64,000 nucleotides of DNA from Streptomyces sp. I6 (lineage in GTDB: Bacteria > Actinomycetota > Actinomycetes > Streptomycetales > Streptomycetaceae). The position numbers and the translations under genes were made by a program. This document shows, in pieces, positions 1 through 47,463 of this stretch (within the stretch, counting starts at the first letter, position 1; each line of letters starts with the position of its first letter). The stretch is from contig RHDP01000001.1 of NCBI GenBank assembly GCA_003725745.1, positions 6,489,501-6,553,500 on the forward strand. The letters run 5' to 3'. Below the pieces are notes generated by a model. It did not search any database and was not told the DNA's origin. It worked only from the letters and a program-made list of their open reading frames with translations.

Positions 1-190
1 CACCCGGCTCGCCGTCGAACACCCCACCACCGTCGCCGAGGGCAAGCCGGGCGGCGGACTGCGCCGCCGGCGCCGACTGCGGGGCCGACGCCGCCACCGC
101 CGCGGGTGCCATCGCCCCTACCCCGAGCAGACCGGCCGCCACGACCAGCCCCAGTCGGCCGGCCCAAGAAACCATGTGCCTGAATCGCAT
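1..190 (-). CDS. Exported protein, N-terminal part only (runs off the window)
   Basis: Reading the minus strand from an ATG at 190 gives 63 residues beginning MRFRHMVSWAGRLGLVVAAG. It has a short basic start, a hydrophobic core (LGLVVAAGLLGVGAMAPAAV) and an Ala-rich tail ending near AVAAS-APQ, so a Sec-type signal peptide is clear. A purine-rich AAGG stretch about 10 bases upstream could be the ribosome site. The rest of the protein lies outside the window, so no function can be assigned. The gene is divergent from the YVTN protein gene. Confidence 0.65.
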   Translation of the reverse strand, partial: MRFRHMVSWAGRLGLVVAAGLLGVGAMAPAAVAASAPQSAPAAQSAARLALGDGGGVFDGEPG

Positions 191-699
191 GAGGATCGCC
201 CTTCTTCCGAGAAACACCTCCCTGAGCCTTCTTCGGCTCCGTGAGCGGCATATTCCGGACACGGAGCGCCCGGGGGACACCGAAGAAGAACACAGGGGCC
301 GGATATGTTGCGTATCCAGTAGGCCGTGACGCGTCCGGCACGGTCACGCCACGCGAATTCGGAACTTGACAGCCATTCCATGCGGCCGTAGCGGTGCTGG
401 CGCCCGTGAAGAGAAGTCCGGCACACCGTGCGGGACGGTGAGTTCCCTCCGCGCGCACCGGTCCCGGTCCCGCCGGCGGTGATCACAGGGCCGGTCCAGG
501 GACCAGATGCGGGCTCTGGACGTGGCGAACCGTGTGGATTGCAGGAAAATGGACGTGATGCCGGACATGTGGGGCCCAGAGATTCGGGCGCACGGGTGCC
601 GTGGTGCTTGCTGGTGCCGGGTGTCCGGTCCGAGCAGACGGGCGGGCTTCGGAGGGCGGGGCCGCGGCGCCGCACCCTGACCTGGCCATGGAGGGTTGT
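191..699. other. Divergent intergenic region
   Basis: About 500 bases between two divergent genes for exported proteins. It is locally less GC-rich around 310-380, as expected for promoter DNA. Apart from the candidate promoter listed at 366-394, no gene or repeat is supported here. Confidence 0.6.
366..394 (+). promoter_or_regulatory. Candidate sigma-70-type promoter
   Basis: A perfect TTGACA (366-371) is followed after 17 bases by TAGCGG (389-394). The -35 and spacing are ideal; the -10 lacks the usual final T. It would drive the YVTN protein gene with a leader of about 300 bases. Inferred from sequence only. Confidence 0.35.
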
Positions 700-1775
700 A
701 TGACTGCCTGTCGTGTTACGTCGCGAACGGGGCCCGGCGACGGCGTCGGAGCGCCGCGGAGGCAGCAGGGGTGGCGGGCCGGGGCCAGGGTTCTGGTGTC
801 CGCGCTTGTCCTGGTGGCGGGGCTGGTGGTGCCGGTGTCGACCGCGCAGTCCGCGCTCGCTGTCGCGACCGGCACCTATGCCTATGTCGCCAACACCCAT
901 GACGACACGGTGTCGGTGATCGACACCTCCGGGAACACGGTCGTCGACACCATCCGGGTCGGCGACGCCCCGCGCTGGGTCGCCGTGACCCCGGACGGCG
1001 CCTACGCCTACGTCACCAACGGAGCCGATGATTCGGTGTCGGTGATCGACACCTCCAAGGAGACCGTCACCGCCACCGTTCCCGTCGGCGACTCCCCACG
1101 CGGGATAGCGATGAGCCCGAACGGTACCTATGCCTATGTCGCCAACACCGAAGGCGATTCGGTGTCGGTGATCGACACCTCCAAGAAGGCCGTCACCGCC
1201 ACCGTTCCCGTCGGAGCCTCTCCGGTCGGGGTGGCGGTGGCTCCGAACGGCTCCTTCGTCTATGTCCCCAACACCGACGGCGATTCGGTGTCGGTGATCG
1301 ATACTTCCGGGAACACGGTCGTCGACACGGTCCGGGTCGGCGACTCCCCGCGCGGCGTGGCGGTGACGCCGGACAGTGCCTTCGCCTATGTGCCCAACAA
1401 CGGTGGTGACACGGTGTCGGTGATCGATACTTCCGGGAACACGGTCGTCGACACCGTCCGGGTCGGCGACTCCCCGCGCGGCGTGGCGGTGGCTCCGAAC
1501 GGTACCTATGCCTATGTCGCCAACAACGGTGGTGACACGGTGTCGGTGATCGACACATCCAAGAAGGCCGTCACCGCCACCGTTCCCGTCGGAGCCTCTC
1601 CGGTCGGGATGGCGGTGGCTCCGAACGGCTCCTCCGTCTACGTCGCCAACACCGACGGCGATTCGGTGTCGGTGATCGACACTTCCAGGGATACCGTCAC
1701 CACCACCGTCGGCGTCGGGGCTTCCCGTTCGGTGTGGCGGTCTCGGTGGCACCCCAGCCGGGGCAGGAGCGCTGA
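700..1775 (+). CDS. Exported seven-bladed YVTN beta-propeller protein (frame break near C-terminus)
   Basis: ATG at 700 has a close GGAGGG ribosome site. Residues 1-50 are a basic start plus signal peptide (hydrophobic run LVSALVLVAGLVVPVSTAQSA). Then come seven 42-residue blades of the YVTN/YncE type, each with a [TS]YxYVxN-x4-D[ST]VSVIDTS core, so the protein is almost purely a seven-blade ring. The family binds partners or ligands at the cell surface; no catalytic residues are recognisable. The seventh blade breaks at about 1727: one extra C in the CCC run restores GASPFGVAVSVAP and a stop at 1775, whereas the sequence as given runs on to 2541 antisense through the next gene. The break is inferred from the repeat itself. 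Confidence 0.8.
874..1755 (+). repeat. Seven tandem 126-base blade-encoding repeats
   Basis: Units start at 874, 1000, 1126, 1252, 1378, 1504 and 1630. Several blocks, for example ATTCGGTGTCGGTGATCGAC, are nearly identical between units, indicating recent tandem duplication or gene conversion. Confidence 0.9.
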
Positions 1776-1862
1776 CGCCATTCAAGTGGCGTACCGCGCT
1801 GTGCGACTGACCGTGAGTCGGCCGGCCCCGTACCGTTCGTATACGGCGCCGGAGTCGCGGGC

Positions 1863-2503
1863 CTACTTCATCAGGGCCGCCCAGTCACCGTCGAGAACCC
1901 GATCCCTCCAAATGTCGACCTTCTTCTCGGAGACGTCGTACTTCTCGGCGACCTGGGCGGTCGTCGCCTCGTCGGCCAGCAGGGCCACCACGATGCGCAC
2001 CTTGTCCACCACCGACAGTTCGTCCACCGGCTTGTCCGGGAGTTCACCGAACTCCTCGAAGCCCTCGAGGTTCTTCAGTTCCTTCAGCTCCTGGAGGTCC
2101 TTCAGTTTCTTGAATTCCTTGAGGTCCTTGAGGTCCTTGAGGCTTCCGGCATCCTCCAGGTCCTCGAAGTCCTTGGACTCGTCGGACTCCTTCGACTCCT
2201 TCGACTCCTTCGACTCCTTCGACTCCTTCGAGTCCTTGGAGTCCTTGGAGTCCTCAGGATGCGCACAGCCGGGCCGGCCCGGTTCGCCGGGCTCACCCGG
2301 CCGACCGGGTTTCCCGCCCTTGCCGCCCTCCCCGCCCTTGCCGCAGCCCTCGGCGGACCGGCTGACCAGGGCCGCGGCATCGGCGGAGGGGGCCGTGCCC
2401 CTCGGGGAGCCTGCGGTGCCTGAGCGGCGCACGCGGTCCCGGTCGCGACGGCCACCGAGGCCACCGCCAGAACGACCGAATGCTTCCAGAGTTTCCTGGA
2501 CAC
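1863..2503 (-). CDS. Exported low-complexity protein: collagen-like, SKE and LKD repeats, C-terminal HTH-like segment
   Basis: No family recognised. A GTG at 2503 with a GGAG ribosome site 8 bases upstream starts SRKLWKHSVVLAVASVAVAT, a good signal peptide. The rest lies in the next frame, so a one-base loss is inferred around 2400-2440. The second part reads: a collagen-like Gly-X-Y run (GEGGKGGKPGRPGEPGEPG), nine or more Ser-Lys-Asp/Glu triplets, about ten Leu-Lys-Asp/Glu triplets predicted as a charged helix, then about 50 residues resembling a transposase-type helix-turn-helix (VAEKYDVSEKKVDIWRDRVL). An HTH in an exported protein is odd. Using the alternative ATG at 2522 avoids the frame break but has no ribosome site and loses the signal peptide. 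It is convergent with the YVTN gene. Confidence 0.6.
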
Positions 2504-2690
2504 GGGAAACGCTCCGTTTCATGACGAGAGAAGACAAGTGAACAGAAGCGAAGACGAGAGAAGGGGTGCCGCTCGATGACGGGATAAGGAAGCCGTCCAC
2601 CTATCGGGTGCACCCGACCACCACGGGGGTGGAGGCCGGCCGGCCTCCACCCCGCCGAGGCGGGCCGTGGGTCCGCCTCGGGTCCGGTGA

Positions 2691-3314
2691 TCAGAAGATG
2701 CTGATGCCGCCCTCACCTCCGTTGCCGCCGTCGCCGCCGTGGTCGAAGACGCTGTAGCCACCGGCTCCGCCGTCGCCGCCTGCGCCACCGTCGCCGTAGA
2801 CGGTGTCGCCTCCGTCGCCGCCGTTGCCGCCGTCGCCGCCGTGGTGGAAGACGCTGTCCCCGCCGCCTCCGCCGCTGCCCCCGTCGCCGCCGTCCCCGTA
2901 GACGCTGTCGCCTCCGTCGCCTCCGTCGCCGCCGTGACCGCCATGGCCGAAGACGCTCTCCCCGCCGCCTCCGCCACCGCCTCCGCCGCCCCCGCCGCCG
3001 TAGACGCTGTCGCCGCCGTCACCTCCGTCGCCGCCTGCGCCTCCGTCGCCGTAGACGCTGTCGCCGCCGTCACCTCCGTCGCCGCCTGCGCCTCCGTCGC
3101 CGTAGACGCTGCCGCCGCCCGCGCCTCCGTCGCCGCCCGCCCCGCCGCCGGTGACCAGCACCGCGGGCGCCACGGCAGAGGCCGCCGGAGTCGCCGCGGA
3201 CGCCGGAAGGGCGACCGCACCGGAAGCGGCGGCGGCAGAGGCGAATATCACCGCCAGGCGGAAACCTCGCCGTCTGGGCCGGCCCTCGTTGTGGTTGTGC
3301 ACCATACGGGTCAT
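2691..3314 (-). CDS. Exported glycine-rich repeat protein (SVY/SVF units)
   Basis: ATG at 3314 has AGGAG seven bases upstream, preferred over the GTG at 3332. The 207-residue product starts with a basic segment and signal peptide (RRRGFRLAVIFASAAAASGA, cleavage near ASA-ATP). From about residue 60 it is eight copies of a 17-residue unit of pattern [DEG]-[ST]-V-[YF]-x-x-GG-x-GG-x-GG-x-GG, ending ISIF. Nothing enzymatic is visible. The regular aromatic SVY/SVF every 17 residues in a Gly/Asp spacer suggests a structural or surface polymer, loosely like PE_PGRS-type glycine-rich proteins, but no homology is claimed. It lies downstream of, and on the same strand as, no obvious partner; its neighbour at 1863-2503 is a similarly repetitive exported protein. 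Confidence 0.75.
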   Translation of the reverse strand: MTRMVHNHNEGRPRRRGFRLAVIFASAAAASGAVALPASAATPAASAVAPAVLVTGGGAGGDGGAGGGSVYGDGGAGGDGGDGGDSVYGDGGAGGDGGDGGDSVYGGGGGGGGGGGGGESVFGHGGHGGDGGDGGDSVYGDGGDGGSGGGGGDSVFHHGGDGGNGGDGGDTVYGDGGAGGDGGAGGYSVFDHGGDGGNGGEGGISIF

Positions 3315-3748
3315 CGAATTACTCCTGTTCACGCCGAGAATGAATGGCTTTCCCCGTTGTTTCCGGGGATGATTTTGGAGCGGCGGACGCGGGGAATTCC
3401 CGCCCCGCCATTCCGTTCCGCTGCGCTGTGCTACGCCTCACTTCTGCCGAGGCTCACATCACCATTACGCCGGAATGGGAGAAATGGGTCGCGTTCCGAA
3501 AAATCGGGACTTGACGCGATCGGAAACGGCGGGTAGAAGCCACGGCCCGGCGAATTCCCCCCTCGACCCGGCGGTGCCGGCACACCGCCCCTGCGTCCCG
3601 CCCCGCGGCACACCGCAGCCGAGCGGCCCTGCCGGCCGTGGGTGCCTGGTTGGCGCCGCCGCTTGATGACTCGGGAAAGGTACGGGAGGGTGGCACAGTC
3701 CCGGCTTCCAGCGGAAGGTGATGAGGCCCGCTCCCGGGCCTTGGCAAC
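3315..3748. other. Intergenic region with a small hairpin
   Basis: About 430 bases between divergent genes. CCCCG (3352-3356) pairs with CGGGG (3364-3368) around a 7-base loop, in the 5-prime leader of the glycine-rich protein. A candidate promoter for the downstream phosphatase operon is listed at 3511-3539. No further gene is supported. Confidence 0.5.
3511..3539 (+). promoter_or_regulatory. Candidate promoter of the partner-switching operon
   Basis: TTGACG (3511-3516), 17 bases, TAGAAG (3534-3539). The -35 and spacing are good, the -10 weaker. It would give a leader of about 200 bases before the phosphatase start at 3749. Confidence 0.4.
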
Positions 3749-5410
3749 ATGACGACTTTCGAAGGCTCCCCGCGCGGGTCGCAGGGCGCGGCCCCCGTCG
3801 ACGCCTCGTGGACGCGGTCTCCCTACCCCGCACTGGCCGCGGACCGCGCCGGCGGGGTGCTGGAGGTGAACGCGGCGGCTGCCGCGCTGTTCCCCGCCGC
3901 GCTCGGAGGAGCGCGGCTCGACGACGTGGTGCCCGCATGGCTGGCCCAGGCGCACCGGCGAGTCACCTCGGGGGGCGCCCCCGGGGGACGGGCTGGCGCG
4001 GAGCGCGGCCGCCACGGAGACCTCACCCTGGAAGCCCATCCGACGGTGGGCGAGAACGGAGAGGTGGTCTGGTGGCTGGTCGACGACACCGACCGCCTGC
4101 TGGCCGAAACGGCCCTGCACGACGAACGGGAGAGGACGGCCTTCCTGGCGGAGGCCTCGACCCGGCTGCTCGCCTCGCTCAACGTGGACCGGTGCATGGA
4201 GGCCGTGGTGGGCATCGCAGCAGAGCACCTGGCGGACGCCGCAGTCCTCGTCGCCCCGGCCGCCGGCAAGCGCCACCCCATGGCGGCGACGGTGCGGGGC
4301 GGTTCCGTCGTCCGCACCGCGGCCCGGATCGACCCCGCCGCGGTACCGGGCCTCGCGGAGGCGCTACGGGGGTTCCCGCCCGTACCGTCCCGGTGGATCG
4401 ATCCCGCCGCACTGCCGGACTGGGCGGTCCCCGACGGCCTGGACGGGCCCGTCGGCTCCGTCGTGGTCACCCCGCTGCCCGGTCTCGGAGTGCCGGCCGG
4501 CGCGCTCGTCCTGCTCCGGCGCGGTGAGAACGCCGCCTTCGGCGCCTCGGAGGAGGTCTTCGCCCGGATCTTCGCCGCGCGTGCCGGAGTGGCGCTGTCC
4601 GCAGCGCGCCTCTACACGGAGCAGGCGAGCATCACCGCGACCCTGATGGGGGAACTGCTGCCCCCGGAGCTCCGGCATGTGCACGGGGTGGAGTTCGCCG
4701 GCGGCTACCGCGCCTCGCGCGACACCGAGCGGGTCGGCGGCGACTTCTACGACGTGCACCCGGGTGCCTCGCCCGACCAGGAGACGTTCGCCGTGCTGGG
4801 CGACGTGTGCGGCAAGGGCCTGGCGGCCGCGGTCCTGACCGGCAAGATCCGCAACACCCTGCAGGCGCTGCTGCCCCTGGCCGACGACCACGGAAAACTG
4901 CTGCGGCTGCTCAACGGCGCACTGATCACCGATCGGCACGCCCGCTACGCCACCCTGGTCCTGGCCTCGGTGCGGCGTACGGGATGTGCCACACACCTGC
5001 GCCTGACCAGCGCGGGGCACCCCAGGCCGCTGATCGTGCGCCAGACCGGCCGGGTCGAGGAGGCCGACACCTCGGGGACCCTGGTCGGGGCCCTGCCCGA
5101 GGTCAACGCCCGTACCGCGGAGGTGGAACTGAGGCCCGGCGAGACCTGTCTGCTGTACACGGACGGCATCACCGAGGCCAGGGGCGGTCCTCTCGGCGAC
5201 GTGATGTTCGGGGAGGACCGGCTGCGGGCGGCGCTGGCGGAATGCGCCGGCATGCCCGCCGAGGCCGTCGTGGAGAGGCTGCAGATGCTGGCCTCGGAGT
5301 GGGTCGGCGACGGGCCGCACGACGACATCGCGGTGGTGGCGATCACCGCGCCGTACGGCACCCGTCTCACGGCGGTCGACGGCCATACGCCGGGCAGGTG
5401 CACCGCATGA
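3749..5410 (+). CDS. PAS/GAF-type sensor PP2C (SpoIIE-like) serine phosphatase
   Basis: 553 residues. Residues about 20-110 look like a PAS sensor (ALAADRAGGVLEVNAAAAAL to WWLVDDTDR), 125-290 like a GAF domain, and 310-540 are a SpoIIE/PP2C catalytic domain with metal-binding motifs GGDFYDV (about 330), GDVCGKG, LYTDGITEAR and DDIAVV. Proteins of this family remove phosphate from a serine on STAS anti-sigma antagonists, which then bind the RsbW-like kinase and release a sigma factor. The next gene overlaps by four bases (ATGA), and STAS and kinase genes follow, so this is probably the input phosphatase of that switch. No strong ribosome site precedes the ATG at 3749. Catalytic residues appear intact. 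Confidence 0.9.
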   Translation: MTTFEGSPRGSQGAAPVDASWTRSPYPALAADRAGGVLEVNAAAAALFPAALGGARLDDVVPAWLAQAHRRVTSGGAPGGRAGAERGRHGDLTLEAHPTVGENGEVVWWLVDDTDRLLAETALHDERERTAFLAEASTRLLASLNVDRCMEAVVGIAAEHLADAAVLVAPAAGKRHPMAATVRGGSVVRTAARIDPAAVPGLAEALRGFPPVPSRWIDPAALPDWAVPDGLDGPVGSVVVTPLPGLGVPAGALVLLRRGENAAFGASEEVFARIFAARAGVALSAARLYTEQASITATLMGELLPPELRHVHGVEFAGGYRASRDTERVGGDFYDVHPGASPDQETFAVLGDVCGKGLAAAVLTGKIRNTLQALLPLADDHGKLLRLLNGALITDRHARYATLVLASVRRTGCATHLRLTSAGHPRPLIVRQTGRVEEADTSGTLVGALPEVNARTAEVELRPGETCLLYTDGITEARGGPLGDVMFGEDRLRAALAECAGMPAEAVVERLQMLASEWVGDGPHDDIAVVAITAPYGTRLTAVDGHTPGRCTA

Positions 5411-6725
5411 CCGGCGTCCATCGCGCACGGACCGGTGACGCCCGCGCCGCCGAGGCCGACGCTCCCGCGGCGGACCGGCCCGTCGCAGCCGTCCCGGCAG
5501 GCCGTCCCGGTGCCGTCGGTGCCGCCGACGGAGACCGTCCACCCGGGCAGGCCGACGGAGACCGTCCGCCCGGCCAGGCCGACGGTTCGACCGGGGCGCC
5601 GCGTGCGGCACTGCTGTCCGCTGCCCGGGACGAACTCTGGAAGGCCGTCGACGCGCGGGATGAACCGAGCGCCTCGCGGGGCGTGTTCGGGCTTCTGGAC
5701 TCCGGTCTCGCCGCCGAGGACGTCCTGCTCGAGGTCATCGCTCCGGTACAGCGGAAGGTAGGGGCGGAATGGGCCGCCGGACGCATCACCGTCGCCCAGG
5801 AGCACGCCGCCACCGCCATCCACGAGCGCGTCATCGCCGCCCTGGCACACCGGTCCGCCCCGCGGACCGGGCCGAGCGGGGTGACCGTCACCGTCGCCTG
5901 CGTCGAGGGGGAGTGGCATGCCCTGCCGGCCCGGATCCTCGCCGAGACGCTGCGTCTTCGCGGCCACGCGGTCGACTACCTCGGAGCCCAGGTGCCGACC
6001 GCGCACCTCATCGCCCATCTGCACCGGACGGCGCCGGACGTCGCCGCCCTGTCCTCCTCGCTCCCCACCCGGCTGCCCACGGCGCACGCGGCCATCACCG
6101 CCGTCCGCGCCACGGGCGTGCCGGTGCTCGCGGGCGGGCGGCGTTCGCCCCGGACGGCCGCTACGCGCGGCTGCTCGGCGCCGACGCCTGGGCCGCGGAC
6201 GCCCGTGAGGCGGCCGACGTCCTCAGCCGCGGTCTGCCCCGGCCGGGGCCGGACGCGGCCCGGCCCGCCGCGGAGGACCTGCCCCATCTGGACGACCAGG
6301 AGTACACCGTCGTCAGCCGCGGCAAGCGGCGACTGGTGAGGCACACCCTCGCCGGGCTGGAGCGGCGGCTCCCCGCGATGCTCTCCTACAGCGAAACCCA
6401 ACGCGAGCGCACCGCCGAGGACCTCGCCCATATCGTCGACTTCCTCGCCGCCGCCCTCTACACCGACGACACCACGCTGTTCACCGGCTTCCTCGACTGG
6501 ACGGGCGGCATCCTCGAAGCCCGGGGCGTGCCCGCCCGCGTCCTCCTGCCCGGGCTCGACCTGCTGCGGCAGGAGCTCAGGGACTTTCCCCGTACTCTGG
6601 ACCTCCTCACCCAGGGGCCGACACCCTGCGCGGGCGGGACCCCCGTCCCACGATCCCCGGCCCCGGAACCGCACCATGACCGCATTTCCCGAACGCACCC
6701 TCGACATCGAGGTCACCACCGGTGA
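5407..6725 (+). CDS. B12-binding sensor with CarH-like cap (frame break near 6137)
   Basis: The start ATG overlaps the upstream stop. After a Pro/Asp-rich linker, residues about 62-145 form a four-helix B12-binding-2 cap with W122-x9-E132-H133, the spacing of the adenosylcobalamin photoreceptor CarH. Residues about 155-245 are a Rossmann-like B12-binding domain with E-W-H171-A-L-P in place of D-x-H-x-x-G, so the axial histidine is kept. At about 6137 the frame breaks inside a GGG run; one added G gives VLAGGAAFAPDGRYARLLGA and an uninterrupted helical C-terminus to 6725, about 439 residues in all. That C-terminal helical region (about 290-420) is not recognised. There is no MerR DNA-binding domain, so any signal is likely passed to the phosphatase or STAS proteins encoded beside it. 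Confidence 0.8.
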
Positions 6726-7098
6726 CGGCGGGGAGGTGCACGTCCGTATCGGCGGCGACCTCGACTGGGACTCGGCGGACGACCTCACCGAGGCCGCCCG
6801 CGTCTGCCTGCACGCCGAGCGGCCGCCCCGCCTCATGGTGCTGGACTGCGGTGCGCTGAGCCTGTGCGACTCCGCGGGGCTGGCGGCACTCCTCATGATC
6901 CACCGCATCGCGACCGCCGCCGGGACGCGGCTGCGGCTGGACCACCGACCCGCGCTGCTCGAACGGCTGCTGGCACTGACCGGCACCCGGGACCACCTCA
7001 CCGGCGCGGGCGGGGCCGGGGCCGCCGAGCCCCCGGGCGAGCCGGACGCGCCGAGCACCGCCGGTACGGCGCCTCCGCCTCCGGCCCGGCCCGACTGA
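6676..7098 (+). CDS. STAS-domain anti-sigma factor antagonist
   Basis: 140 residues. A STAS fold spans about 10-105, with the phospho-acceptor motif LSLCDSAGLAALL (Asp-Ser-Ala-Gly, Ser at about 74), as in SpoIIAA/RsbV/BldG. The Pro/Ala-rich tail (115-140) is probably disordered. When dephosphorylated, such proteins bind the RsbW-type kinase. The start overlaps the end of the corrected B12-sensor gene by about 50 bases and the phosphatase lies two genes upstream, so co-transcription is likely. Confidence 0.88.
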   Translation: MTAFPERTLDIEVTTGDGGEVHVRIGGDLDWDSADDLTEAARVCLHAERPPRLMVLDCGALSLCDSAGLAALLMIHRIATAAGTRLRLDHRPALLERLLALTGTRDHLTGAGGAGAAEPPGEPDAPSTAGTAPPPPARPD

Positions 7099-7176
7099 GG
7101 CCTGTCCCGTCAGGGGCCGGGGAGTCCCGGGCGCCCCACCCTGCCCGCGCCGGAGGCGGGCTGGGACAATTCCCGG

Positions 7177-7554
7177 ATGAGCGAAGACCTGGAAGTGACG
7201 TCGTCCCTGGTCGACGGCGTGCGCGTGGTGCGCGTCAGCGGCGAGTGCGACGCCGACGAGGCCGGGACGCTGGCCCAGACCCTCGCGGCGCCCCTCGACG
7301 GCACCGCACTCGGAGTCGTCGTGGTGCTGTCCCGGGTGACCTTCGCCGACTCCTCGTTCCTCCACACGCTCATCGAGGCGCACCGCCGCCATGTGGAGGC
7401 GGGCGTGCCGCTCGTGCTCGCCGAACCCCACATCTCGGTCCGGCGGCTGCTGGACCTCACCGACACGGCGCGCCTCTTCACCGTCGCTCCCACGACGGCC
7501 GCGGCCGCGGACGAGGTCCGCGGGGCACGCAGCGACGGCCACCACGTCCGGTGA
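7177..7554 (+). CDS. Second STAS-domain anti-sigma factor antagonist
   Basis: 125 residues, a compact STAS domain with beta-strands at the N-terminus (VRVVRVSGECDADEAGTL) and the acceptor region VTFADSSFLHTLIEA, where Asp-Ser-Ser gives one or two candidate phosphoserines. It differs clearly from the preceding STAS protein, so this is a pair rather than a recent duplication. The stop overlaps a GTG that could start the anti-sigma kinase (GTGA), pointing to translational coupling. Start at ATG 7177. Confidence 0.88.
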   Translation: MSEDLEVTSSLVDGVRVVRVSGECDADEAGTLAQTLAAPLDGTALGVVVVLSRVTFADSSFLHTLIEAHRRHVEAGVPLVLAEPHISVRRLLDLTDTARLFTVAPTTAAAADEVRGARSDGHHVR

Positions 7555-7577
7555 ACGGCGGACCGGAGCGGCACCCG

Positions 7578-8236
7578 ATGCACCGTGGGCCGCAGGCGAG
7601 GGACACGGCCGACGCGGCGGCGGAAGCGGCCCGTGCGGCGTCACCGCGCGGGGGAGGAACGGAGGGAGCGGCCGCCACCGGCCGCGAACAGGCCCCCGGC
7701 CCGGCGGCTGCCCACCGGCACCCTTCCGCACCGGGAGGGCCCGGCGCGCACGGGTATCGCCCCGCAGCGGTGACGGATCCGCGGGAGCAGCATCCGGGAG
7801 TCCTCCCCGGTGCGCACCGGCACCGTTCCGTGAGCCTGCCGGGTACGGGCGAACCGGGCCCCGGCACGGCCGCCGCCGCCCGCGAGCGGGTGCGCCGCCT
7901 CCTCGACGGGCACGCGGCCGCGCCTCTGCCGCCACCGGTGGTCGACGACATCCTGCTGGTCACGTCCGAGCTGGTCACCAACGCAGTGCGGCACGGCGGC
8001 GGCCTCGCCGCCTTCCACGCCGAACTCGACGGCCGCACCGTCCGCATCAGTGTGTCGGACCGTTCGCCCACGCCGCCCAGCAGCACGCTGCGCCGCCGGA
8101 CCACCGCGCCGGGCGGCTTCGGCTGGCCCCTCGTCCAGCGCCTCAGCCGCAGTGTCACCGTCACCCCGGCCCACGGCGGCAAGACCGTCGAGGCCGTCCT
8201 GCTCGTCTCCGCCGAGAGGCCCGGCCAGGGGCCTGA
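7578..8236 (+). CDS. RsbW-like anti-sigma factor serine kinase (3-prime end uncertain)
   Basis: A long Ala/Gly/Pro-rich N-terminal region (about 1-90) precedes a GHKL ATPase domain with N-box motif DDILLVTSELVTNAVRHGGG and a later GGFGWPLVQRLS motif (G-box region shortened). This family binds a sigma factor and phosphorylates STAS antagonists. The start is ATG 7578 with GGAG upstream; GTG 7551 is the alternative and overlaps the previous stop. As given, the frame stays open to 8681, running 220 bases antisense into the convergent phosphatase. One missing G in GGGG at 8228-8231 would instead end the protein at 8236 right after the ATPase fold, which fits the family. This end is inferred. Confidence 0.7.
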
Positions 8237-8318
8237 CCGCGCCCGCCGCACGCGGCCCGGTCCGGCGGTGCCCCGCGGTGCGGGCGGCGGCACGCTTCCC
8301 GGCGTGCTGAGCCGGCCC

Positions 8319-8474
8319 GGCCCGCATGCCGGGCCGGCGCCCGGTCGCGGACTCGCGGCCACGGCGCCCGGGGTATCCGCTATGTGCCGGCTCCCGGCCC
8401 GCATGCCGGGCCGGCCCCCGGTGGCGGACTCGCGGCCACGGCGCCCGGGAGGGACCCGCTATGTGCCGGCTCCC
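8319..8474. repeat. Tandem 78-base duplication carrying a hairpin between convergent genes
   Basis: Copy 1 is 8319-8395 and copy 2 is 8396-8474, over 90 percent alike. Each starts with GGCCCGCATGCCGGGCC, a perfect 6-base stem with a 5-base loop, and ends CTATGTGCCGGCTCCC. The position between convergent genes suggests a duplicated bidirectional terminator. Confidence 0.75.
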
Positions 8475-9655
8475 GCCCGGGCACGGCGGGTACGGGTGCG
8501 GGCCCCGTGCCAGTCCAGGCACAGCGCCGCGGCATCGTCCTGGAGGCGTCCGCCGCAGGCGTGGCTCACCGCTTCGGTCAGGGCCCGCACGACCTCTCGC
8601 GGGTGCTCCGCGGCGGTGCCGAGGATGAGGCCGGGCAGATCGACGCTCTGCGCCCGGCGTTCCTGCATGCCGTCCGTGTAGAGCACCAGGCGGTCGCCCG
8701 GGCGCAGGTCCAGGTCCTGCGCCCGGTACGGGTCGGGTGTCGGCACCCCGAACGGCAGGTGGACGTCCAGGCGGACTTCGCCGACCCGGCCGTCGCGAAG
8801 CCGCAGCGGCCACAGATGGCCCGCGTTGACCACCCGCGCTCCCGATCCGTCCAGGGCGACGCGCAGGAGGAGCCCCGTGGCCAGGGCGCCGCGGCCGTGG
8901 TCGAGGATGGCCTGGTGGATCCGGTGCGCCTGCTCGGGCAGGTCGCCCCCGTCCCGGCGGGCACCCCGTGACGCGTTGACCAGCAGAGTCGCCAGCAGGG
9001 CGGAGTTGACGTCGTGGCCCATGGCATCGGTGACGGACAGATGCAGTGTGTCGTGGTCGACGGTGTAGTCGTAGGTGTCGCCGGAGATGGCGTCGGCGGG
9101 GACCAGCGCCGCGGCGAACGTGAACTGCGCCGCCTCGCAGCAGGACGCCGAGGGAAGGAGCTGCCGTTGGATCTCGGCGGCCAGACTGACCGGGGTGGTG
9201 CGCTGACCCCAGTGGTAGAGGTCCGTGAACCGGCGGTTTGTGACGATCATGTAGGCCAGCGCGTGGGCGGTCTCCTCGACCTGCTCCACCGCCTCGTCAC
9301 CGGCATCGGGCAGGATCAGTTCGAGCAGGCCGATGGTGTCGCCCCGGTTGGTGACGGGCGCGATCACCCGCTCGCCCCGACCGCCCTCGCGCAGCCGCAC
9401 CGGCCGCTGGGTGCGCAGGACCTCGTCGTAGCGGCTGCCGGTCAGTTCGATCTGCTCCGCGCGGCGGCCCTTCCGGGTGGCGACGTCCTCGCCGACCCGC
9501 ACCAGTTTCCGGCCGATGATGTCGACGATCAGGAACGACACATGCCGCGCGCCGAGCCGTTCGCGCAGATCGCGGGCGACGACTTCGACGGACTCCACCG
9601 GCGCGGCGTCCTCCGCGGCGGCGAGCATCTCCGCCAGCCCGTTCCGGTGCTGCAT
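8459..9655 (-). CDS. GAF-linked PP2C (SpoIIE-like) serine phosphatase
   Basis: ATG at 9655 has a GGGGAG ribosome site seven bases upstream and gives 398 residues. Residues about 20-165 form a GAF-like sensor ([20 protein letters not shown] to [17 protein letters not shown]). The phosphatase domain (about 180-385) keeps the metal motifs as [27 protein letters not shown] and [12 protein letters not shown]. It should act on STAS phosphoserines, perhaps those encoded just upstream on the other strand. It is divergent from the giant histidine kinase across a 335-base region with a perfect palindrome, and convergent with the RsbW-like gene. Confidence 0.9.
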
Positions 9656-9990
9656 CTCGGTCTCCCCGCTGTCCGTGTCTCGTCCCGGAGAACCTGCATC
9701 CGCAGGAAACCTATCCGGCGAAGAGTGCCGTACCAACCGCGACGCGTTCCGCGTGCGCCGGGTCCGGCGCAACGGCATGCGCGCCCGTCGCCCGTCGCCT
9801 GTCCGGTATGCACAGGGGCGCAGGTCACGCGGAGGACCGCGGCACGGTACGCTGCCTCGTATTTTGTCGTACGACAACGGTTCTCGGATCGATGGTGCGG
9901 CGGAGTACGGGGGTTGGCCCTCCGCCGGAGGGCCGCTGCGCTCCACCCGTCGCACACGGGCGGAGCAGGGTCGGGCTAACGAGGGCGGTC
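9656..9990. other. Divergent promoter region between phosphatase and histidine kinase genes
   Basis: 335 bases between divergently transcribed signalling genes. The middle (9850-9890) is unusually AT-rich for this window and holds the palindrome listed separately. No gene is supported. Confidence 0.6.
9864..9877. promoter_or_regulatory. 14-base perfect palindrome, candidate operator
   Basis: TTGTCGTACGACAA is perfectly self-complementary with no spacer. It lies about 210 bases from the phosphatase start and 115 bases from the kinase start, a typical place for a dimeric regulator site shared by divergent genes. The regulator is unknown. Confidence 0.5.
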
Positions 9991-14285
<4,295 letters not shown>

Positions 14286-14369
14286 CGCATGCGGCACCGC
14301 GGCGAAAGCCCCCTGCCCGAGTACGAACAGCCTTCCTCACGACCCGTACCCCGAGGAGTCCGCAGCGCC

Positions 14370-16917
14370 ATGAGCCGAACCGAGCCCGCCGGGAACCCGC
14401 CCGGTGACGAAGCGCTGCTCGCCGCCGGGTGCGAGCCGGCGGCCGGCTCCGGCGCACCGCCGGCGCCCCGGCCGGGGCCGGGCCCGGCACACGCGCCTGC
14501 ACCCGGGGCGCGCCCGCTGCCCCGGCGGCGGGGGCCCGCGGCACGGCGCTCACTCCCACCGCCGCGCGGGACGGCGCGCCGGACCGCACCTCCAGCGTCG
14601 GCCGGCTGGCGGCCACCGTGGAGCGGCTCCGCAAGGAGATCCGGGCCGCACACGCGGCCGCCGACGGACGGGCCCTGATCGAACTCGCCAAGGGCGTTCT
14701 GATCGAGAGGCTCAGCTGCGGACCCGCGCAGGCGGCGGCCCAGCTGGCCGAACTCGCCGGCCAGGCGGGCCTGTCGCAGCTCGAACTCGCGGCCGACATC
14801 ATCAACCAGGCCGCCCGCGACGAGGTCGCCGACATCGCGAGCGAGTTCGTCCGGCGCGCCCATGGCGACCCGGACGGGAACGGACCAGGCCGCTCGGTCT
14901 CCGTGCGGCTGCGCACGGCCGAGAGCGCCGCGCTGGCCTCCGGTGACACCCAGGCGGTCGCCGAGTCGCTGCTCCAGCACGCCCTCGCCCCGCTCGGTGC
15001 TACCGCCGTCGCCGTGTGGACCGCGGCCACGGACGGTTCCCTCTCACTCAGCGGCCACGCCGGCTTCAGCGCGGACGAGGCCACACGCTGGCGGTATGTG
15101 CCGCCAGGCGTCGCCACCGTCGCCCGCCAGGCGCTCGGCGAGCGGCGCCCGGTGCACATCCCCTCTCTCACGGAGTCGGGCGTTCCGTCCATCGGCCACA
15201 GCCGGACGGCGGACGGCGGCCGGGTCGCCCTCCCGGCCGGAACCGGCGGCAGGATCCACGGGGTTCTGGAGATCTGCTGGCCGCACCTCCTCCCGCCCCG
15301 GTCGCCCGCCGTCGAGCGCCAGCTCGACGCCCTCGCCGAACTGTGCGCCCACACCCTGGAGAGCGCCCCGCCGCCGCGGGCCCGCATGCGCCGCAGGAGC
15401 CCACCGACGTGTCCGAACTCGTGGAACTGGCCGAAGGGCTGCACGACCCGGCGCTCGTCCTCACCCCGCACCTCGACGCCGAGGGCCGGCTCACCGACTT
15501 CCGGGTCCGCCACGCCAACAGCCGCTTCCTCGACCCGGCCGGCCGGCCCCGCAGCGCCGTCAGCGGTGCCCTGCTGCTCGAGGCGTACCCCATGGCCGCC
15601 GCGGACAGCGACCTCTTCGACAAGGTCGAACGCGTCTACGCGACAGGTGAGTCGTTCCGGGCCAGGCGGATGACCCTCACCGCCCTCGTCGATCAGGTTC
15701 CCCTCGACACCCTCGCCGATCTCAGCATCAGCCGCCACGGCCACGCCGTGCTGCTGATCTGGCGCATCGAGGACGAGACCGCGCGCCTGGCCAGTCTGCT
15801 CCAGCACGCCCAGCGTCTCGGCCGCATCGGCGGCTTCGAGGAGAACCTGGTCAGCGGCGAGGTGACCTGGAACGGGCAGTTGTTCGCCCTGTACGGCCGC
15901 GCGGTCACGGACAGCCCCGTCCATCTGGAGGACCTCTCCTCCCACGCCCACCCCGACGACGCGGTCACCATCGGCCGCTTCCTCCAAGCGGTGCTGCACC
16001 ACCGGCGGCCCGCGTCCACCGCGTTCCGCCTGCAGCGCCCCGACGGCGTCACCCGCCACATCCGGGTCATCGCCGAGCCCGTCCTGGACGCCGAGCACCG
16101 GCTCATCGCCGTACGAGGGGCCTACCAGGACATCTCCTCGCAGCACTGGACCGAGGTCGCGCTGGCCGCCACCCGCGACCAACTGGAGCACACCGAGAAG
16201 GAGTCGGCCGAACGCAACCGGCTCGCACTGCAACTCCAGCACGCCATCATGCCGCCGAGCCGCGCGCCCCTCGACGCCCCCGGACTCGAGGTCGCCGTCC
16301 GCTACCGGCCGGCGGAGTCGGAGTCCCTGGTCGGCGGTGACTGGTACGACGCGGTCGTGCTGCCGTCCAAGCGCATCCTGCTGTGTGTCGGAGACGTCGC
16401 GGGCCACGGCATCGAGGCGGCCACCGGCATGGTCGTCCTGCGCAACGCGGTACGCGGCCTCGCGGTCACCGGAGCGGGCCCGGCCCAGCTGCTGTCCTGG
16501 CTGAACATCGTGGCGCACCATCTGACGGAGCACGTCACCGCCACGGCCGTCTGCGGACTGTACGACCCGGAGACCCGCATGCTGCGCTGGGCCAGGGCGG
16601 GACATCTTCCCCCGGTCCTCGTCCGCGGTGCCGACGCCAGCACCCTGCCCATGCCGGGGGGTCTGCTCCTCGGCGCCCTCGGCGACGCCCAGTACCAGGA
16701 GTCCGACGTCCAACTGGAGCCGGGCGACACGCTGCTGATGTACACCGACGGCCTCGTCGAACGCCGGGACACCTCAGTCCACGACTCCCTGACGCAGCTG
16801 CTGGGCACGGCCAGGGTCGCGTCGGCGACCCTCGACCGGCGGCTGGACCACATGCTCACCCACAGCAAGTCCGACACCGACGACGACACCTGCCTCATCG
16901 GCATACGGGTGCTCTGA
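14370..16917 (+). CDS. ANTAR-GAF-PAS-PP2C phosphatase (two frame breaks)
   Basis: Three successive reading frames join into one protein of about 849 residues if one base is restored near 14530 and one near 15380. Order: Pro/Ala-rich start; ANTAR domain (about 85-155, RALIELAKGVLIERLSCGPAQ to LAADIINQA), which in other proteins binds paired RNA hairpins; a GAF domain (about 190-330); a further sensor segment and a PAS domain (about 480-590, RLGRIGGFEENLVSGEVTWN); then a SpoIIE/PP2C domain with GGDWYDAV, GDVAGHG, MYTDGLVERRD and DDDTCLIGI. An RNA-binding antiterminator domain joined to a serine phosphatase is an unusual output pairing. The start ATG 14370 follows CGAGGAG at some distance. The gene lies 85 bases after the histidine kinase, so the two may form an operon. 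Confidence 0.8.
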
Positions 16918-17216
16918 GCGGGTGCGCCGCCGACGGCCCCGGCCCCGGAAGGCCGGCCGGGCGCCCGGGCCCGCGGCCGCCCGTCCGCGCGCGCCGTCCG
17001 CGCGCGGCCGGGGCGGGTGGGGCGGGTGGGGTGTGCGGTGCCGGTCCGCGCGCGGACCTGGCCGGTGGGGCGCGCCACCCCGGGGTGGACCACGCCGTAC
17101 GGGGGACGGCTTGGTCGCCCCGGGCAGGGGTGACCGGTGCTGCGGCCGGCGGTGTGTGCGCGACCGGGTGACCGGGCGACCGGGCGAGGCCGGCCGGAGG
17201 CGCCGCCCAGCGCCGT

Positions 17217-17528
17217 CTAGTCCCTGCCGGACTTGTCGCCGCTGGGCCAGACGCCCGTCGCGCGGTGTACCGCCTTGGCACCGGACCGGTCGACCACACT
17301 GCGTACGACCGCGAAGATGGCACCCTGGACCGCTGCCGCGAGCAGGATCTCGCCCCACTTGCGGTCGGGGTCCAGGGCGTCGGGCGCGTCGTCCTCGTGG
17401 CGCAGTACCTTCCAGGCCTTCTGGAAGGCCATCCCGGCGAGCGCGCCGCCGGCCCAGCCCAGGGCGAAGCCGACCGGCTTGTAGACGAGCGGAACCTTGC
17501 CTGTTCGTTTCAGCTTCATCTTGCTCAT
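17217..17528 (-). CDS. DUF4235 family membrane protein
   Basis: ATG at 17528 with AAGGGGGA upstream gives 103 residues. The core YKPVGFALGWAGGALAGMAFQKAWK is a glycine-zipper-like hydrophobic segment and GEILLAAAVQGAIFAVVRSVVDR a second one, so two membrane helices are predicted. The pattern HEDDAPDALDPDRKWGEI between them is the hallmark of DUF4235, a family common in Streptomyces with no known function. Confidence 0.85.
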   Translation of the reverse strand: MSKMKLKRTGKVPLVYKPVGFALGWAGGALAGMAFQKAWKVLRHEDDAPDALDPDRKWGEILLAAAVQGAIFAVVRSVVDRSGAKAVHRATGVWPSGDKSGRD

Positions 17529-18083
17529 GCGTCCCCCTTCACCGTTGCCTTGTGTGCACGTGTTGTCGTTCTGTGTGAGGCCGCACACCGTATCCCGTTC
17601 CTACCGGGCGTTTCGTGTGGCGCGTGCCCCCTGCGGCACTCCGTACACCTGACGGCACCCCGTACAGGTGCGGTGTCGTTCGCCCCGGGCCGGGCACCCA
17701 CCGCGTCGGGGCGTCGGGGCGTCGGGGCGTGGCACGGGGTGGATGGTGGATCGGGCGGGCGGGCGCGTCGCGCGGAGGCGGTGCCCTGCGACCGGCAAGC
17801 CACCCGTGGGGTGGAAGTCCGGATCGGCCGTCGCGCCGAAGGAAGCGGGGCACTGACGGGCGCTCCTCGGGCCAAGGCGGCATGTGTGTCCCGTGATTCG
17901 CGGGGCAGTCGGACGGCGGAAGGCCGCGCGGGGACCGGCCCCCGGTGTTCACAGCTGTTCACCGGTCTTCCGGGGCTGGCCCGGGCTGACAGTGTTCCCG
18001 GGTGTTCCCGGGTGTTCCCGGGTGTGCCCGCCCAGGTGCGGGCCCCGCCCCGTCGGCGACCACCCCAGCAGAAGGCGGAGGAC
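17529..18083. other. Intergenic region with a 10-base repeat
   Basis: About 550 bases between divergent genes with no supported gene. At 17991-18030 the unit GGTGTTCCCG occurs four times in tandem with one mismatch in the first and one in the last copy. Confidence 0.6.
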
Positions 18084-18410
18084 ATGAATCCACTCTTTGC
18101 CGGCCAGGACTCCCTCGTCACCCAGGCCGCGAACGATCCGGCCCTGGGCGGCGTCGGGCCGTTCCTCGCCGGAATCGTGATCGTGGCGGTGCTCATCGGG
18201 GTCATCCCTTGGGCGATCCGGCGTCGCAGGACACAGCCGCGACCGCCGCTGCCATCCGAGCAGCCCGTGCGTCCGGCCGGACGCACGCACATCGAGGAGA
18301 CCCGGGAACCGGAGGGTGAGAGCTTTCCCGGCGACGGGTCCCGGCTGAGCCCGCATCAGCTCAAGTCCCACGGCTCGCATCCCCGGCCCGGGGCAACGCC
18401 GCCGGAGTGA
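18084..18410 (+). CDS. DUF6479 family single-pass membrane protein
   Basis: 108 residues from ATG 18084, with GGCGGAGGAC directly upstream. An N-terminal segment (NPLFAGQDSLVTQAANDPAL) is followed by one membrane helix (VGPFLAGIVIVAVLIGVIPW), an RRRR stop-transfer motif and a charged tail with THIEETREPE and SRLSPHQLKSHG. This architecture matches DUF6479, found widely in streptomycetes; function unknown. Basic residues after the helix suggest a cytoplasmic tail. Confidence 0.8.
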   Translation: MNPLFAGQDSLVTQAANDPALGGVGPFLAGIVIVAVLIGVIPWAIRRRRTQPRPPLPSEQPVRPAGRTHIEETREPEGESFPGDGSRLSPHQLKSHGSHPRPGATPPE

Positions 18411-18436
18411 CGTCCAGGGCGGTGGCCCGTTCGGCG

Positions 18437-18476
<40 letters not shown>

Positions 18477-18614
18477 GTGACAGCCGACGGATGACGGCCG
18501 ACGGCTGCCGGACACCGCACAGACCGCCGGACGGAGCAGGACTGAGCCCGGACGGAGCACAGGCTGACACCCGTTCATCTGGAAGTCGGCCGACGAGTTT
18601 GCTAGACGTGGGGG

Positions 18615-19052
18615 ATGCATGAACGTGACCGCACCCCATCGGCCCCGGGTACCGCGCTCGGCGTCCTCAGCTGCAGCCGGCGAGGCAACGCCTGGGTCAT
18701 CACACTGGGCGGCGACCTCGGTCCGGACGCGCTGGCCGGCGTGTCCCGGCGGCTTGACCGCGCACTCGACGAAGGCCGCGCCATCGTGATGGACACCAAG
18801 TCGGTCACCTCCGCCGATCCGGCCATGCTCACCCTCCTCATGAAGCTCCAGGAGGAGGCGTCGCTCTACGTGGCCGCGCCCTCGCCTCCCGTGCGGGAGC
18901 TTCTGGCGAGGCCCGGGCCCCATACTTCGGTCCGTACCGTCACCTCGCTCGGAGAGGCCCTGGACGCGATCGGCGCCGGGGTCGCCCGACGGCCTGACAG
19001 TCCCACGGCCCCACGGCCCGAGGCCCGACGGCCTGACGGTCCGACTGCTTGA
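18615..19052 (+). CDS. STAS-domain protein (third antagonist in the window)
   Basis: 145 residues. A STAS-like domain covers about 15-115 (AWVITLGGDLGPDALAGVSR to SLGEALDAIGA). The acceptor region reads VTSADPAMLTLLMK, where Asp-Pro replaces Asp-Ser, so the canonical phosphoserine is absent at that position. It may be a non-phosphorylatable, constitutively active or divergent antagonist. The tail (120-145) is a Pro/Arg/Asp repeat whose DNA continues as a repeated block beyond the gene. The ATG follows TAGACGTGGGGG closely, so it may be leaderless or use GGGGG as a very near ribosome site. Confidence 0.7.
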   Translation: MHERDRTPSAPGTALGVLSCSRRGNAWVITLGGDLGPDALAGVSRRLDRALDEGRAIVMDTKSVTSADPAMLTLLMKLQEEASLYVAAPSPPVRELLARPGPHTSVRTVTSLGEALDAIGAGVARRPDSPTAPRPEARRPDGPTA

Positions 19053-19746
19053 CGGTCCGACTGCCTGACCGGGCTGTGGGCCGAGTACGGGCTGACGATG
19101 GAGGGCTTCGGACTTCGGGCTGCGGGCTCGGTCTTCGGGCCTGGGCTCGGGCCTGGTCATGGCCATGAACGCGACCACGGCCGTGGGCTCCTGGTCGCAC
19201 CGATGCCGCCGGCCGACCGAGTGCGGGCGTCCGGTTCGTCGTCCGTGACCGGCGCGGGTTGACGCACGGGTTCCGCCCGCCCCGTACGCGTCCGCACGCG
19301 TGTCCGACGGGACTGCGGGTACGCGAGCGCCCATGAACCCCGATCCATCGGGCCAGGAGCCCGTGCCGTCCGGGAAGCAGCCGCGGACCAGGTCCGCAGA
19401 CGAGGGGCGGAGCACTGTCGGGCGGAGTTGTCCCACCACGCGGCGGTCGCCGTCGCGCTCTCCGCGGGTGTGGCGCTCGCCGACCCCCTTGTGCTCCCCC
19501 TGGTGCGTGGCGATGCCCGCGTGGGCCGCCGCGCTGCTCGCCGCCTTCGCTCCTGCGCCCGCGGCGGGAGCCTGCTCGGGTCCGCCGTCCCGAAGGTGCG
19601 CCTTCCGCCGGCATCGGCACCGGTGCCACCCGGGACGCCGGTGACACCCCCTCAGGAACCGGTCCCCGGCGCCGGGGACGCATCCATGGAGGGCAGCCGG
19701 GTTTCCACCGACGGTACGAGGCAACCAGAGGGAGGACGAGGTCGCG
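19053..19746. other. Intergenic region upstream of gvpO
   Basis: About 700 bases. The first 80 repeat GAC-GGYCYGAC-like words shared with the end of the STAS gene. Open frames exist in several phases but none has a convincing start and composition; a hydrophobic stretch around 19428-19520 (AVAVALSAGVALADPLVLPL) is the only protein-like signal and could be a relic. Confidence 0.5.
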
Positions 19747-20055
19747 ATGACCAACTCAACCAGCAAGTCCGGTGACGGTGACACCGGGGCGGACCGTCCG
19801 TCGAAGGCGATCGACGTCATGCGGGCGGCCCGTGACCAGCTCGCCGAGTTCACCGGAATGCAGGTCGAGTCGGTGTCGTCCTTCGCACGGACGGACGACG
19901 GCTGGGAGCTTGCCGTAGAGGTGGTCGAGCTCGCCCGCATCCCCGACACGACCAGTCTGCTCGCGACGTACGAGGTCGCCCTGGATCTCGACGGCGAGCT
20001 GACCACATACCGACGCGTCCGGCGCTACGAGCGCGGGAGGGCGGACTCCTCCTGA
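19747..20055 (+). CDS. gvpO: Gas vesicle protein GvpO
   Basis: 102 residues with the whole GvpO pattern: an acidic/Ser start, AIDVMRAARDQLAEFTGMQV, SVSSFARTDDGWELAVEVVE, ARIPDTTSLLATYEV and YRRVRRYERGRAD. In Streptomyces gvpO opens a conserved cluster (O, A, F, G, Y, Z, J, L, S, K). Its ATG at 19747 follows GAGGACGAGG. This gene is intact, but what follows is a broken gvpA and a gvpF-gvpK junction, so gas vesicles are not expected from this locus as written. Confidence 0.88.
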   Translation: MTNSTSKSGDGDTGADRPSKAIDVMRAARDQLAEFTGMQVESVSSFARTDDGWELAVEVVELARIPDTTSLLATYEVALDLDGELTTYRRVRRYERGRADSS

Positions 20056-46434: not shown

Positions 46435-47463
46435 ATGGCCAGGGAAATCGACGTCGACGCGTACGCCAAGGGTGTGCTCGACGGGAAGCGGGCGGCGGTC
46501 GCCCGCGCCATCACGCTCGTCGAGTCCACCCGGCCCGACCACCGCGCCGCGGCCCAGCGGCTGCTGACCGAACTGCTGCCGCACAGCGGCGGCGCACGGC
46601 GGATCGGGGTCAGCGGAGTGCCGGGGGTGGGCAAGTCCACCTTCATCGACGCCTTCGGCACGATGCTGACCGGGCTGGGGCACCGGGTGGCGGTGCTGGC
46701 CGTCGACCCGTCGTCCACCCGCACCGGCGGCTCCATCCTCGGCGACAAGACGAGGATGGAGCGGCTGTCCGCCGACCCCGCGGCCTTCGTCCGGCCGTCG
46801 CCCTCGTCCGGCACCCTGGGCGGGGTGGCCAAGGCGACCCGCGAGTCCATGGTGGTGATGGAGGCGGCCGGGTACGACGTGGTCCTGGTGGAGACCGTCG
46901 GCGTCGGCCAGTCCGAGACGGCCGTCGCCGGGATGGTCGACTCCTTCCTGCTGCTCACCCTGGCGCGCACCGGCGACCAGCTCCAGGGCATCAAGAAAGG
47001 CGTCCTGGAACTGGCGGACGTCCTCGCGGTCAACAAGGCCGACGGCCCGCACGAGCGCGACGCCCGCGCCGCGGCGCGGGAACTGGCGGGCGCCTTGCGG
47101 CTGATGCGTCCCCACGGTCTCAGCTCCGCTGGACCTGGGGACACCCCGTCGGCCGAGGTCGCCTGGACCCCGCCGGTGCTGAGCTGCAGCGCCCGGGAGT
47201 CCAGCGGGCTCGACACCGTCTGGGACCGGCTGGAGCAGCACCGTGCCCTGCTCGACGCGGACGGCCGCCTCGTCGCCAAGCGCCGTGAGCAGCAGGTCGA
47301 CTGGGCCTGGGCGATGGTGCGGGACGAACTCCTCGGCCGCCTCCGCTCCCATCCGGGCGTCCGGGCCCTCGGCCCCGCCCTCGAACAGCAGGTGCGCGAC
47401 GGCGAACTGACCGCGACCCTCGCGGCGGAACGCATCCTGGAGGCGTTCGCCGGAGAGGGGTGA
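46435..47463 (+). CDS. meaB: Methylmalonyl-CoA mutase-associated GTPase MeaB
   Basis: 342 residues, a G3E-type P-loop GTPase: Walker [39 protein letters not shown] (switch region with the SIMIBI base), [20 protein letters not shown] and NKADGP for guanine recognition, plus the C-terminal helical dimer arm. MeaB loads adenosylcobalamin onto, and protects, the mutase. It starts six bases after mutB ends, completing a three-gene operon. Confidence 0.97.

Follow-up and report, generated by a model that had tools for sequence, protein, structure and literature searches.

Organization of the photocobilin locus

We analyzed a 64,000-nucleotide stretch of the genome of Streptomyces sp. I6 (contig RHDP01000001.1, positions 6,489,501 to 6,553,500; hereafter the window, with coordinates counted from its first letter). 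The GC content of the window is 73%, and the genome comprises 7.05 Mb in 2 contigs with a completeness score of 87.4%. The gene under study starts at position 5407, and its product is, on homology, a photocobilin, a member of a family described in 2024 and not a variant of CarH with an unknown output. The genes of the locus are arranged in the order phosphatase, photocobilin, STAS, STAS, and HATPase. Homology and gene order together give good support to a B12 photoreceptor module that has no DNA-binding domain and is wired to partner switching, in line with the original prediction made from the DNA sequence.

The upstream gene (3749..5410, + strand, as for all genes of the module) encodes a serine phosphatase of the PPM/SpoIIE type with PAS-like and GAF-like units, which is the constant genomic partner of the photocobilin. 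The stop codon of this SpoIIE/PP2C phosphatase gene overlaps the photocobilin start in the sequence ATGA. The photocobilin is read in two frames, of which the first (5407..6144) covers a low-complexity N-terminus of ~65 residues, the helical cap, and the larger part of the Rossmann domain that binds B12, and the second (6141..6680) covers the remainder of that domain and a bilin-binding globin (photoglobin) domain. Two STAS anti-sigma-factor antagonist genes follow: STAS1 (6676..7098; Pfam STAS_2, E = 8.8e-14), with its Ser in a D-S-A-G motif, and STAS2 (7177..7554; Pfam STAS, E = 3.3e-13), with a D-S-S motif. The last gene (7551..8681; Pfam HATPase_c_2, E = 1.5e-12, domain ~7872–8195) encodes an RsbW-like kinase/anti-sigma factor and is read from a GTG at 7551 that overlaps the STAS2 stop. 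Both the phosphatase overlap and this downstream order had been predicted, and both were confirmed. By reading, the phosphorylatable Ser is present in both STAS proteins, and the Asp motifs of the PPM metal site are present in the phosphatase.

The phosphatase had been described as a PAS/GAF PP2C protein. Pfam matched only SpoIIE and gave no PAS or GAF match at E up to 0.1. In the predicted model, a PAS-like unit, a GAF-like unit, and a long helix (residues 266–302) precede the PPM domain; the PAS/GAF assignment rests on this order of elements, which fits. The fold matches listed for the model are taken up by the PPM domain, and phytochrome matches with a root-mean-square deviation above 20 were rejected as having no evidential value. 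In an alignment of 26 phosphatases (the window protein and 25 of the 74 named ones), many residues of the GAF-like domain at about 201–228 were invariant, and this segment is a candidate docking surface for the photocobilin.

Identification of the photocobilin

Both frame pieces matched the crystallized photocobilin SasPcob in a phmmer comparison with 8j2w/8j2x, with E values of ~1e-44 (1.2e-44 against 8j2x and 1.3e-44 against 8j2w) for the first piece and ~1e-22 for the second. The predicted model of the photocobilin of the nearest intact relative, from locus L033, aligned with SasPcob over 330–335 residues. Pfam identified B12-binding_2 (4.9e-13) and B12-binding (5.8e-15) domains, and Pfam, phmmer, and the L033 model agreed on the photocobilin domain order, with the B12 cap and Rossmann domain followed by a globin-like domain. 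About 68 residues precede the start of the match to the SasPcob crystal chain. Neither piece contained a MerR or other DNA-binding domain (Pfam, E up to 0.1), as had been predicted. The B12 module of the CarH-like photoreceptor first proposed is upheld by homology, but its family is that of the photocobilins, which use B12 plus biliverdin. The C-terminal helical domain had been regarded as unrecognized and as the candidate output; that reading was rejected, as sequence and the L033 model comparison match this domain to the bilin-binding globin of photocobilins, an input domain.

Counting from the ATG at 5407, W122, nine residues, and E132-H133 are followed by E-W-H171, exactly where the original prediction had placed them. 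W122 (codon 5770..5772) aligns with SasPcob Trp61, which stacks on the adenosyl group; E132-H133 (5800..5805) align with Glu71-His72 of the dimer/adenosine network; and H171 (5917..5919) aligns with His108, the lower axial ligand. Each of these residues is kept in 88/89 alignment rows, the remaining row being a gap. The SasPcob residues W61, E71, H72, and H108 have been placed at the ligand (PMC10979010; the paper's numbers differ throughout by six from the chain index of the alignment), suggesting by homology that W122, E132, and H133 face the ligand as predicted. H200 (6004..6006; H in 85/89 rows, N in 3, and R in 1) aligns with His137, which forms a putative salt bridge to the biliverdin of the other monomer. 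In the second frame, we found the equivalents of Asp270, a key biliverdin contact (6420..6422; D in 86/89 rows), and of Trp296, a ring D/corrin contact (6498..6500; W in 86/89 rows); SasPcob numbering was matched by hand. Overall, between 85 and 88 of the 89 photocobilin open reading frames (ORFs) retain the globin contacts and the W, E, and H residues that contact the adenosyl group. The protein of Streptomyces sp. I6 would accordingly be expected, from its sequence, to bind adenosylcobalamin (AdoCbl) and biliverdin and to respond to light.

Conservation of the gene neighborhood

Of 199 genomes drawn evenly from the genus, that of Streptomyces sp. I6 included, 75 contained a photocobilin. We annotated the neighborhoods of 84 gene copies (the window, 8 of the 11 loci of an earlier set, and 75 further loci) with profiles seeded with the window's own proteins (for sigma factors, with that of locus L106), a procedure that may miss divergent kinases in particular. 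The globin domain was found in 82 of the 84 copies. A phosphatase match above 300 bits, from one phosphatase lineage, lay on the same strand within 2.6 kb upstream in 81, a same-strand STAS gene lay downstream in 61, and an HATPase gene lay within 4.5 kb on either strand in 33. The same-strand order phosphatase–photocobilin–STAS–STAS–HATPase occurred in 5/84, the window included. Similar counts were obtained for a named set of 80 genes in 79 loci, which consists of the best matches listed and is biased to close relatives: globin 80, phosphatase 78, STAS 57, HATPase 30, and sigma factor 4. These best matches came from Streptomyces (55), Mycolicibacterium (10), Mycobacterium (6), Nocardia (3), Amycolatopsis (2), and four other genera with one each. 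The two sets overlap, as L172 and L103 have identical positions relative to the module and lie on contigs of equal length.

In a comparison of 41 genomes, the 10 genomes with a photocobilin match (1e-10) were exactly those in which the phosphatase (1e-50) was present; the remaining 31 had neither. A further phosphatase copy (G020:C21:11271-12896) is present in one of these 10 genomes, G020, on a contig for which no photocobilin match was listed. Ser was present in 107/121 rows of downstream STAS proteins from two overlapping samples. Variants of the arrangement were also observed. Streptomyces poonensis (L093, 4517–11469) has two phosphatase–photocobilin–STAS units in tandem, and in Nocardia (L044) the phosphatase is preceded by STAS and HATPase genes. 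In L073 and L074, one ORF holds parts of both the phosphatase and the photocobilin; a natural fusion was rejected, as further parts of the same phosphatase are read in different frames there, a pattern suggestive of frame slips.

Sigma factor neighbors were counted from a scan with one clean seed, and the hits of a scan in which several query ORFs were shadow frames were retested with NCBIfam. In L103, L106, and L107 (Streptomyces avicenniae), a sigma factor gene over the NCBIfam SigB/F/G cut-off lies just downstream on the same strand, with the HATPase gene of L107 located upstream of the module. By the local profile only, a sigma factor gene also lies beside the module in L157 (phosphatase, photocobilin, STAS, HATPase, sigma) and L145 (sigma, HATPase, phosphatase, photocobilin, STAS), the L145 match being cut by the contig end. 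Weaker neighbors were seen in L165, ~4 kb away, and in L066, on the opposite strand. The genome of Streptomyces sp. I6 contains eight SigB/F/G matches over the NCBIfam cut-off, all outside the window, and no cognate sigma factor was found in the same operon in a search of positions 1–20000 of the window.

The region around the photocobilin is rich in partner-switching genes. Two further SpoIIE phosphatase genes, one with GAF (8459–9955, −) and one with PAS (15016–16914, +), and another STAS gene (18606–19049, +) lie nearby. A glycine-rich repetitive ORF at 2691–3332 (−) had no Pfam match at E up to 1e-4.

Cofactor supply

A cobalamin adenosyltransferase gene is present in the genome, and the window contains genes for a methylmalonyl-CoA mutase with a B12 domain (44206–46425, +) and MeaB (46435–47460, +). 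The adenosyltransferase and the mutase suggest that AdoCbl is available to the cell. Heme oxygenase is also encoded in this genome, as it is in 181 of the 199 genus genomes; being nearly universal, it was rejected as a tracer of biliverdin use. It does not separate genomes with and without a photocobilin, and biliverdin use by the photocobilin is no more than plausible.

Proposed light input to partner switching

We consider it likely that light acts on the photocobilin and, through it, alters the phosphatase, which in turn determines the phosphorylation of the STAS proteins and the release of a sigma factor. Switch proteins of this type normally turn on stress genes, so that a stress response is probably placed under light control here with no need for DNA binding. 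AdoCbl would be held between the helical cap (W122, E132, and H133) and the Rossmann domain, with H171 as the lower ligand, and biliverdin would probably lie in the C-terminal globin. Illumination of either chromophore would break the Co–C bond, the adenosyl group would leave, and the dimer would open, steps that have been reported for SasPcob (PMC10979010). The photocobilin would then act, probably by direct binding, as a dedicated co-regulator of the directly upstream phosphatase, as the gene pairing suggests. Its position and role would be comparable to those of RsbQ for RsbP or RsbT for RsbU, and it is the obvious candidate for the phosphatase partner. RsbT binding to the N-terminus and linker of RsbU is reported to set phosphatase dimerization, and the same partner-driven mode is predicted for RsbP with RsbQ (PMC12143880). 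As in standard partner switching, the phosphatase would dephosphorylate the STAS protein(s), which would bind the RsbW-like kinase so that a SigB/F/G sigma factor is released, presumably the product of one of the eight genes noted above. By analogy with AbDPcob, which is inhibited in the dark and activated in the light, our guess is that light raises phosphatase and sigma factor activity.

The photocobilin might instead sense the availability or redox state of cobalamin or biliverdin, as argued for AerR/PpaA proteins, and control the same phosphatase. This is unlikely given the retention of the adenosyl and globin contacts across the aligned ORFs and the photoactivity of SasPcob, which has the same residues (PMC10979010). 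We regard as slightly less probable an action of the photocobilin on the STAS protein or as a scaffold, comparable to the RsbR-type globin proteins of stressosomes. The downstream STAS genes would fit such a role, and photoglobins are treated as homologous to the RsbR globin in PMC10151467. However, the phosphatase is the more constant neighbor (81/84 against 61/84), 21 of the 84 copies have the phosphatase with no downstream STAS, and, among 41 genomes, the phosphatase occurs in exactly the 10 that have the photocobilin.

Several observations count against control of a sigma factor by light through the phosphatase. The photocobilin copy in the window is frame-broken, and no sigma factor gene was found at 1–20000 of the window. 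Among the annotated copies, 23/84 have no downstream STAS, a SigB/F/G gene lies within 5 kb on either strand in only 4/84 (4/80 in the named set), and a same-strand HATPase gene lies within 4.5 kb in only 13/84, a number from which the profile may have missed some. The pairing count in the 41 genomes takes no account of shared ancestry. Heme oxygenase occurs in 71/75 genomes with a photocobilin and 110/124 without one (Fisher p = 0.20), and four photocobilin genomes have no PF01126 match.

We lean toward the more general proposal that the photocobilin and the PAS/GAF-like phosphatase form a self-contained two-protein input module that has stayed together in several genera of actinomycetes and through which green and red light control SigB/F/G-type sigma factors by partner switching. 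If so, the photocobilin would be a new kind of partner for RsbU/RsbP-type phosphatases, itself a two-chromophore photoreceptor, and the pair would provide a compact phosphatase switch operated by red and green light. Partner switching would then have a light input in a good part of the genus (75/199 sampled) and in members of Mycolicibacterium, Mycobacterium, Nocardia, and Amycolatopsis.

Frame slips in the Streptomyces sp. I6 copy

The original prediction had treated 5407–6725 (1319 bases) as a single gene. This stretch does not form a single ORF: the first ~245 residues and those after them are encoded in different frames, and two frame slips were read across, the first at 6130..6150 and the second at 6610..6625, each inside a G/C run. 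The third-position GC signal shifts to the other frame at the first slip. Among the matches listed, the nearest named relative is Streptomyces wuyuanensis (L033; 82% identity over residues 66–244), in which the photocobilin is one ORF whose start and end overlap the neighboring phosphatase and STAS1 genes in ATGA. Relative to L033, the slips lie at ~6136 and ~6617 and amount to one base each, so that 6725 marks a stop in a slipped frame; because of the second slip, this frame overruns the STAS1 start. The remaining gaps in the phosphatase, photocobilin, and STAS1 genes sum to multiples of three.

Differences from L033 by codon position numbered 11, 11, and 43 before the first slip (520 aligned bases) and 13, 12, and 46 after it (449 aligned bases); past the second slip they numbered 2, 4, and 2 in 46 bases, which are too few to tell. 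Since the differences past the first slip still favor third codon positions, that slip is recent or an error, and the second half appears to have been selected as protein until very recently. A further slip relative to L033 lies near 10973, in the gene of a hybrid histidine kinase that carries HAMP repeats together with GAF, HisKA, and receiver domains (9808–14285, +). A MerR gene with a B12 domain (LitR/CarH-like; L188, G000:C1:5682088-5682866) elsewhere in the genome is likewise split between two frames; the ORFs flanking it read like photolyases, and it is possibly a second light locus.

Given the other slipped genes, the low completeness, and the codon-position pattern, the slips are probably base-calling errors in G/C runs. 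If they were true mutations, the photocobilin would be a dead remnant and light input would be lost in this strain, which would agree with two slips in one gene and with the broken copies of relatives (no ORF with both domains above 100 bits each in 4/90 photocobilin loci). The persisting codon-position pattern, the slips in the HAMP kinase and MerR-B12 genes, and a genome 87.4% complete in 2 contigs make this improbable, about as much so as a scaffold role. The lack of an intact single reading frame in this genome does not count against family membership. Finally, a CarH/LitR-type DNA-binding transcription factor was rejected as almost certainly wrong: the NCBIfam CarH model matches the B12 part (6.3e-15), but with 55.2 bits against a cut-off of 400, neither piece has a DNA-binding domain, the N-terminus is of low complexity, and the genome has the separate MerR-B12 gene.

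Comparison with known systems

Light responses of nonphotosynthetic soil actinomycetes are known mainly through LitR-type repressors. Already in print are the photocobilin family, its chromophores, and a proposed link to STAS, SpoIIE, and PP2C proteins; in the literature searched, the only direct statement of such wiring was section 9 of Zhang et al. 2024 (PMC10979010), in which a network analysis links SasPcob to these proteins and the natural target of stand-alone photocobilins is treated only by that analysis. The present analysis adds a new member with firmer genomic evidence for this link. Three points are new: the photocobilin is constantly paired with phosphatases of a single lineage, the spread of this pairing within the genus is documented, and some gene runs hold the whole chain as far as a sigma factor. 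No prior statement of these three points was found in the literature searched, which did not cover the 2022 photoglobin paper, and this is not proof of their absence from print. The natural target becomes directly testable in whole-chain operons such as those of L157 and L107.

The closest known protein is SasPcob of Saccharothrix syringae (PDB 8J2W and 8J2X), which shares the domain order, the B12 and biliverdin contact residues, and the fold predicted for the L033 relative. The window photocobilin differs in its ~68 extra N-terminal residues and its frame-broken gene. AbDPcob (8J2Y), a photocobilin–diguanylate cyclase of Acidimicrobiaceae, has the same photocobilin core, but its output is the fused cyclase, whereas the probable output here is a separate phosphatase; AbDPcob also has His at the key biliverdin Asp position, where the window photocobilin keeps Asp. 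CarH and LitR share the cap and Rossmann B12 module with the W, EH, and axial His residues; the window photocobilin lacks their MerR domain and has an additional bilin-binding globin. In the RsbQ-RsbP and RsbT-RsbU pairs of Bacillus subtilis, a partner activates a PPM phosphatase that acts on a STAS protein (PMC12143880). Here the partner would be a B12/bilin photoreceptor. Light also enters partner switching through YtvA, a LOV-STAS protein that provides light input to sigma B. YtvA, however, uses a blue-light flavin LOV domain fused to STAS, whereas the module described here would use B12 and biliverdin together with a phosphatase.
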